Positions 2,842 through 19,981 of a DNA stretch of 22,851 nt are shown piece by piece. Made by a program: the position numbers and the translations under genes. This DNA comes from a virus, in the IMG/VR virus record IMGVR_UViG_3300033571_011710, positions 1-22,851 of that record. One strand, 5' to 3'. The notes under the pieces were generated by a model. That model ran no database searches, was not told the DNA's origin, and saw only the letters and a list, made by a program, of their open reading frames with translations. Each line of letters starts with the position of its first letter. The first letter of the stretch is position 1.

Positions 2842-2861
2842 CTTCCTGATTTTTATTTTAT

Positions 2862-2885
2862 AAAAAATTTCCGGGCGTGACGCCC
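2862..2885 (-). terminator. Possible weak terminator after the small terminase gene
   Basis: On the minus strand GGGCG-TCA-CGCCC forms a 5-bp GC stem, followed after GGAAA by a run of six T. This sits between the small terminase gene and the 59-aa gene. The short stem and the gap before the T-run make it a weak candidate; it might act as an attenuator. Confidence 0.3.
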
Positions 2886-2913
2886 CCGAGAATACCGCGA
2901 GCCAGGAATTTCC

Positions 2914-2965
2914 GGGGGTACCCCCGCCCCCCTCCCCCCTCCTGCGATTCGAGGGGGTACCCCCC
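2914..2965. repeat. Two GGGGGTACCCCC palindromes flanking a C-rich (minus-strand G-rich) tract
   Basis: GGGGGTACCCCC occurs at 2914-2925 and again at 2953-2964, separated by a tract that is nearly all C on the plus strand (2926-2942). Each palindrome is self-complementary and also complementary to the other. The minus strand carries closely spaced G5-G6 runs that could form a G-quadruplex. It lies in the gap between small and large terminase genes. A packaging (cos/pac) site, an RNA structure in the late transcript, or both are possible; nothing in the sequence alone decides. Confidence 0.6.
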
Positions 2966-2978
2966 TGCCGGCGAGCGA

Positions 2979-18801: not shown

Positions 18802-18850
18802 TGCAACGGCCACCGCATTTCACTGACCGTTGCGACCAGTGCGCGACCAG
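18802..18850. repeat. Inverted and direct repeats before the integrase, possible attachment region
   Basis: GCAACGG (18803-18809) and CCGTTGC (18827-18833) are inverted; GCGACCAG occurs at 18832-18839 and 18843-18850, an 11-bp period. Short inverted and direct repeats next to int and xis are expected at an attP site, but the core cannot be identified without the host junction. Confidence 0.3.
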
Positions 18851-18862
18851 CGGGAGGGTGCA

Positions 18863-19981
18863 ATGGAACTCAACGAGAAGAACATCAAGGCGGCTCAACC
18901 GGGCGACGTGCTGCGGGACGCGACGGTGCGCGGGCTGCATCTGCGCTGCTTCCCCGAAAGCAAGGGGTTCTACCTCTTTTACCGCACCAAGGCCGGCCAG
19001 CAGCGCAAGCCGAAGCTGGGCAACCACGGCCAGATCACGCTGGCTCAGGCGCGCAAGGTCGCGCAGGAGATGCTGGCCGAAGTGGCGGCGGGCCGTGACC
19101 CATCCGCCGCCCGCGCCGAGGAGCGAGCCAAACCCACCGTGGCCGATCTCTGGAAGGAGTACTACCAACGGCACGCCTCCCGTATCAAAAGTAGTAAGAC
19201 CTATGAGCGGCAGTGGAACCAGCACGTCGAGCCACGCCTTGGCCGGCTGAAGATCAAGGATGTTACCTTTCCCATGATTGCCGACATGCACGAAGCGATG
19301 GCCGGAACGCCGATCGAAGCCAACCGCGTGCTGGCCTTCGTGTCCGCGATGTTTGGCTACGCCTGCCGCCCTCTGGAGTGGCTCGACCGCAGCCCGGTGC
19401 GGGGCGTGAAGCGGTACAAGGAGACCAAGCGCCGGCGGTATATGTCAGGCGAGGAGACGGCGCGCATCGCCGAGATCCTCGACCGGGAGGCGGGCGACAA
19501 CCCGGCCAGCGTGGCGTTCCTGTACCTCCTGATCCTCACCGGGGCGCGCAAGGGCGAGATCGCGTCTGCGCGCTGGGACTGGATCAAGGGTAACGTGATC
19601 CATCTCCCAGACAGCAAGACGGGCGAGAAGCAAGTCTATCTGCCAGAGCCTGCAATGGACGTGCTGGCCCGCCTGCCGCGCACGAGCGGCACCATCACCG
19701 GCATCCTCACGCCCCAGAAGCTGTGGGAGCGCATCCGAACGGAGGCCGGGTGCCCGGATCTCCGGATGCACGATCTGCGCCACAGCTTCGCGTCTGCGGC
19801 CATGTCCGCCGGTCTGTCCCTGGCGCAGATCGGGGAACTGCTGGGCCACAAGTCCACGCAGACCACCAAGCGTTACGCCCACCTCGTTGAGGAAGCGGCA
19901 ACGGCTGCGGCCACCGCCACGGCGGACCAGATCCTGATGCGCGCAAGAAAAAGCCCCGCTCTGGAGGGAGAGCGGGGCTAG
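18863..19981 (+). CDS. int: Tyrosine recombinase (phage integrase)
   Basis: A 372-aa integrase that joins phage and host DNA at att sites. It has an N-terminal DUF4102-like arm-binding domain (about 1-80; GLHLRCFPESKGFYLFYRTK), a SAM-like core-binding domain (about 95-180), and the catalytic domain with R229 (LTGARKGEI), K252 (DSKTGEK), H303-x-x-R306 (HDLRH), H329 (LLGHK) and the nucleophile Y338 (TKRYAH). The ATG at 18863 has GGGAGGG five bases upstream; a TTG at 18830 is an alternative. The last 30 bases of the gene form the stem of a terminator used by the opposite strand. Confidence 0.93.
   Translation: MELNEKNIKAAQPGDVLRDATVRGLHLRCFPESKGFYLFYRTKAGQQRKPKLGNHGQITLAQARKVAQEMLAEVAAGRDPSAARAEERAKPTVADLWKEYYQRHASRIKSSKTYERQWNQHVEPRLGRLKIKDVTFPMIADMHEAMAGTPIEANRVLAFVSAMFGYACRPLEWLDRSPVRGVKRYKETKRRRYMSGEETARIAEILDREAGDNPASVAFLYLLILTGARKGEIASARWDWIKGNVIHLPDSKTGEKQVYLPEPAMDVLARLPRTSGTITGILTPQKLWERIRTEAGCPDLRMHDLRHSFASAAMSAGLSLAQIGELLGHKSTQTTKRYAHLVEEAATAAATATADQILMRARKSPALEGERG
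19947..19979 (-). terminator. Strong terminator of the minus-strand late operon, inside int
   Basis: AGCCCCGCTC (19952-19961) and GAGCGGGGCT (19970-19979) form a perfect 10-bp stem with an eight-base loop. On the minus strand it is followed by TTTTTCTT, as in an intrinsic terminator. It lies about 45 bases after the stop of the minus-strand metallophosphoesterase gene and within the coding end of the convergent integrase gene. On the plus strand no T-run follows, though the hairpin may still protect the integrase mRNA. Confidence 0.8.

Follow-up and report, generated by a model that had tools for sequence, protein, structure and literature searches.

The closest described systems are the cos phages HK97, D3 and lambda, whose deposited linear ends served here as a yardstick, and terminase-linked packaging sites are a known class of element. 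The core of lambda cosN is two-fold symmetric. In the lambda cos site (cosQ-cosN-cosB), a GGG lies 27 nt before the cut, with a GGGGCGG core and an A/T-rich stretch after it. In HK97 (NC_002167), a G9 run ends 42 nt before the right end of the record, and is followed by an A/T-rich stretch and a T-run, beside terS. For D3 (AF165214), GGGGTGGGGCGGG ends 39 nt short of the last base of the sequence used, which is one base shorter than the record. A fourth cos phage, PaP3, has a weak likeness to this arrangement, with only a GGGG 28 nt before the record end. Sf6 packages by headful, and it is the gp1 and gp2 proteins of this phage that the small and large terminase subunits (TerS and TerL) of the locus described here resemble.

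The window, i.e., the whole stretch of DNA that was analyzed, is the record of one virus, 22,851 nt long and probably a fragment. On its minus strand, reading leftwards, terS (3440-2979) is followed by a 161-nt gap, a 59-aa ORF (2817-2641) and terL (2645-1092). The product of terS is an Sf6 gp1-like terminase small subunit, with matches to phrog_1482 (3e-22), Pfam Sf6_terminase (70 bits, cutoff 27) and the PDB entries 4dzp (6e-6) and 3hef (3e-5). The terL product, the terminase large subunit, matches phrog_2 (5e-40) and, by profile, Sf6 gp2 (1e-5), and scores 21.4 bits against Pfam Terminase_6C, slightly below the cutoff of 22.6. These matches confirm the earlier note's reading that terminase genes flank the site. 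The 59-aa ORF, between the candidate packaging site and terL, is kept in four relatives (L002, L009, L010 and L016, 40-80% identity). Directly ahead of it, at 2828-2840, is a perfect palindrome, TGTTACCGTAACA, present in one copy (against an expectation of 0.14 if two mismatches are tolerated), and strings resembling it were seen by eye ahead of terL in L003, L006 and L009. A tyrosine integrase (Pfam Phage_integrase) is found at 18830-19981 of the window, so the phage is probably temperate.

Read on the terminase strand, the element consists of a palindrome, GGGGGGAGGGGGGCGGGGG merging into a second palindrome, a spacer, GGGGGCGTCACGCCC and AAATTTTTTATAAAATAAAAAT. The palindromes are two exact copies of the same 12-nt sequence, GGGGGTACCCCC, at 2914-2925 and 2953-2964, 39 nt apart from start to start and with 27 nt between them, as had been noticed before; 100 dinucleotide shuffles of the window gave no copy. 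The first on the terminase strand (2953-2964) forms the upstream flank, and the second (2914-2925) is built from the final G-run of the tract and a C arm. The sequence between them had been described as almost pure C, a slightly generous wording, with a C-run at 2926-2942 and mixed sequence beyond. The G-tract GGGGGGAGGGGGGCGGGGG (2921-2939, minus strand) is the most conserved block among the relatives and is proposed to be the cosQ-like or terminase recognition part. It is also the most G-rich 26-mer in the window, with 20/26 G as compared with 16 for the runner-up elsewhere. A spacer (2888-2913, minus strand) separates the G-tract, with its C arm, from the core box GGGGGCGTCACGCCC (2873-2887, minus strand), which spans 34-48 nt past the tract, with its centre at 41, and is the proposed cleavage region. 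The previously noted small hairpin with a T-run is present on the minus strand as GGGCGTCACGCCC followed by GGAAATTTTTT (2873-2885). Finally, the A/T tract AAATTTTTTATAAAATAAAAAT (2849-2870, minus strand) lies 51-72 nt past the G-tract.

The same layout, in which an upstream site 27-42 nt from the cut, known or proposed, is followed by a core and an A/T-rich stretch, is found at the ends of HK97, D3 and lambda and in the window and its relatives. The D3 GGGGTGGGGCGGG closely resembles GGGGGTGGGGGC of the window. The HK97 TerS binds +15 to +29 (PMC10370121), and its site would fall 57-71 nt past the HK97 G-run, compared with 51-72 nt for the A/T tract of the window. HK97 differs from the window in its core sequence and in having the site before terS; the comparison is of layout alone, and homology of the sites is not claimed. 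Similarly, D3 has a C-rich core and a site before terS, the likeness being drawn from its ends as deposited, and lambda is without a long G-tract. Among seven phages with a distant TerS, inspection by eye found the tract-then-A/T arrangement near terS in none; in one of them, RHph_I1_23, a 16-G 26-mer lies inside a small annotated gene. A literature search, with subscription journals mostly outside its reach, returned no description of the site in the phage family of the window, of its strings, or of a G-tract in cos.

Relatives were gathered from 60 TerL and 25 TerS proteins of the viral collection, 8 TerL from genomes, 80 further TerL and named phage records. Dropping TerL near-duplicates (>93% over 300 nt) left 122 loci, and the tallies skip loci with less than 300 nt (HMM test) or less than 400 nt (composite test) upstream of terL. 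An HMM trained on 14 hand-picked elements matched 35 of the 101 non-training loci at E<=10. All 35 top matches were on the terL strand, 31 of them within 1.5 kb upstream of terL and the other four 1.57-2.29 kb upstream. Just 15/101 held-out loci matched at E<=0.05; many single matches are therefore weak, and it is their placement that carries the evidence. Independently of the training set, a composite rule (16 G in 26, then 9 A/T in 10 after 30-75 nt) found a G-tract with an A/T tract no more than 1.6 kb upstream of terL at 59/115 non-redundant loci (46/101 non-training), while 20 shuffles gave 0-4/115. Composite matches were 22-fold denser there, with 61 in 167 kb of upstream sequence versus 29 in 1,772 kb elsewhere, and seven of these 29 were on the opposite strand of the upstream stretch. 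The rule gave no match in 56/115 loci, some of which show the element by eye though below the threshold (e.g., L030, L047, L086 and L108). Among these 56 are SPN1S, AF, Ab31 and two Vibrio phages, all of them related isolates in which the tract was not seen; nor was it in Epsilon15-type isolates. Searching the viral collection for the G-tract with the commonest core, G5-N28..58-CGGGGTCCCTACG, yielded seven stretches, six of them at terS-terL and the seventh within a tail-gene ORF. Across the family, A/T tracts start at a median of 44 nt past the G-tract.

The conserved unit is thus made of the G-tract, some 40 nt with the core box, and the A/T tract, and the palindromes are incidental parts. 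A C arm directly follows the G-tract in only 11/75 scored loci; this scoring took only loci whose best 26-mer has at least 16 G, and some of those maxima are not the element. On this count the palindromes were rejected as a functional unit, and the emphasis that the earlier note put on them is not supported. Near the position of the first palindrome, relatives often carry another GGG..CCC or C-rich string (judged by eye, uncounted), and exact copies of GGGGGTACCCCC also occur in L009 and in the GenBank phage MW202898 (TerL 54% identical). The core box reads GGGGTCCCTACG in most close relatives. Two-fold symmetry is present in the core box of the window itself; among 61 elements whose A/T tract lies at 28-65 nt, symmetric arms of at least 4 were no commoner at the position of the core than in shuffles. 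A conserved dyad was rejected for lack of family-wide support in these elements, hence the name "box". Three loci (L104-L106) that match only the core box and T-run, without a terminase, were also set aside.

Several relatives have endonuclease genes between the element and terL. PDDEXK_5 is found at 4363-5001 of L002 (slightly below cutoff) and at 4344-4782 of L004 (above cutoff), and NUMOD4 together with HNH_3 in L071, L072 and L107, the last being a locus on scaffold 31 of Ensifer adhaerens ST2 that has the element. Three other loci (L109, L110 and L111) are on contigs filed under a Pacearchaeota MAG; they have a TerL of the same phage type as the window and are probably binned phage DNA.

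We consider the region 2849-2964 to be most likely a DNA packaging site, and with reasonable probability one of the cos type. A packaging role was already suggested in the earlier note, and that part of its proposal finds good support in the family-wide conservation beside terS and terL, on either side of terS, and in the cos-end spacing of HK97 and D3. The analysis shows that the element is conserved, linked to the terminase genes, constant in orientation and spacing, and similar to deposited cos ends; that it is bound and cut, and what its parts do, is what we infer from here on. The terminase, with the small subunit leading, would recognize the G-tract, core and A/T layout in concatemers, and its large subunit would cut the two strands in a staggered manner at the core box (2873-2887) or next to it; on the terminase strand this is some 40 nt past the G-tract. 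As in HK97, the TerS ring may grip the A/T tract (2849-2870), and the G-tract, like lambda cosQ, may halt the motor at the next copy.

A pac site, i.e., a headful recognition point where one cut starts a series and the genomes are permuted, is the less probable but still plausible alternative. The terminase does resemble gp1 and gp2 of Sf6; the assignment to a headful family is by sequence, and the Pfam family may not be headful only. Moreover, when relative contigs longer than 34 kb were examined, only one ended in the element and the others were opened elsewhere, one of them (G020) with overlapping ends, so that DNA crossing the site was present in those samples. Against a pac site stands the G-tract, core and A/T spacing, which is that of HK97 and D3 at their cos ends as deposited, as does the one full-length contig that ends in the element. 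This contig (L160, 37,613 nt) is about as long as related long contigs, and both of its ends are inside the element: on the terminase strand one end reads ..GGTCACGTC, 22 nt past the G-run, and the other TATTTTTTTAAAA.., in the A/T tract. Judged from the relative L158, the two ends omit about 25 nt holding the core box. Assemblies can break at low-complexity sequence, and the break of L160 beside an A/T run could be an artefact of this kind. The contigs of L064 and L066 both end 19 nt past the tract, but they have 123 nt in common and come from the same sample. In the L160 subgroup, repeated GTTAGTGAG..ACTAAC palindromes were observed directly upstream of the G-tract (L205, 1-260, the end of the L160 contig).

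Contig ends were also sought with the pattern TAAC-N0..20-GGGGGGTGGGGG, which gave at least 120 stretches; the 80 loci L215-L294 were analyzed and L295-L333 left out. A TerL match at E<=1e-5 was found in 16 of the 80. Twelve of these have at least 50% identity and carry the G-tract upstream of terL and on the terL strand, and the other four are weak (23-35% identity), three of them on the opposite strand. None of the 12 strong loci within L215-L294 had a contig end in the element, and some of these contigs had already been counted. The cos reading is ranked ahead of the pac reading because of the cos-end spacing and the L160 ends, which were weighed against the contigs opened elsewhere, the Sf6-like terminase, PaP3 and the seven phages with a distant TerS.

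It is improbable that the region is instead an RNA element lying between terS and terL (a terminator, a hairpin or a G-quadruplex) and lowering terL expression; an RNA fold or G-quadruplex with this effect was also proposed in the earlier note. The transcribed strand does carry a terminator-like hairpin with a T-run, and its G-runs could fold. However, the RNA fold of that strand is no better than shuffles (z -0.27), and Rfam gave no match for the region, which also holds no tRNA. The hairpin is not retained in most close relatives, with GGGGTCCCTACG in its place; by eye, among 14 aligned elements, a stem with a U-run of the intrinsic terminator type is found in the window and L002 only. A canonical G-quadruplex motif, with four runs of at least 3 G and short loops, is absent from the window tract, which has three runs, and present in 31/75 loci, with the C arm limited to 11/75. 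Position is also telling. Among the 60 loci where terS was recognized, the element follows terS in 30, precedes it in 10 and was undetected in 20, so that it adjoins the terminase genes in 40/60, next to the 59/115 found by the composite rule. An mRNA device setting the terS:terL ratio is not expected upstream of both genes, as in those 10 loci, and an element that stays with the terminase genes whatever their order is in keeping with a DNA packaging site and not with an RNA regulator. Neither an RNA fold nor an obligatory G-quadruplex is supported.

It is very unlikely that the region is a replication origin whose A/T tract serves for unwinding: a G-rich tract does adjoin an A/T-rich one, but the element is linked to the terminase and not to the primase and polymerase genes at 14.4-18.5 kb, and the cumulative GC skew turns at about 11-12 kb, not at 2.9 kb. 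Chance low-complexity sequence, which a GC-rich phage with shorter G-runs elsewhere in the window might produce, is contradicted by the shuffle tests and the held-out HMM test and can be practically dismissed.

Returning to the packaging-site reading, it may come as a surprise that the G-tract is equally far from the cut, known or proposed, in HK97, D3 and the phage family of the window. We tentatively raise the possibility that a G-tract placed some 40 nt ahead of the cut, with an A/T tract after it, is a common "stop and cut" signal of unlike terminases (the Sf6-like podophage family, HK97 and D3, with lambda cosQ as a short form). The layout would make the function of the G-tract directly testable in HK97, D3 and the family of the window. 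Packaging sites are rarely annotated in metagenomic phages, and a recognizable layout beside terS and terL would predict genome ends and help to separate cos from pac candidates. If the signal is indeed shared, the cos sites of uncultured phages would be predictable from sequence alone.
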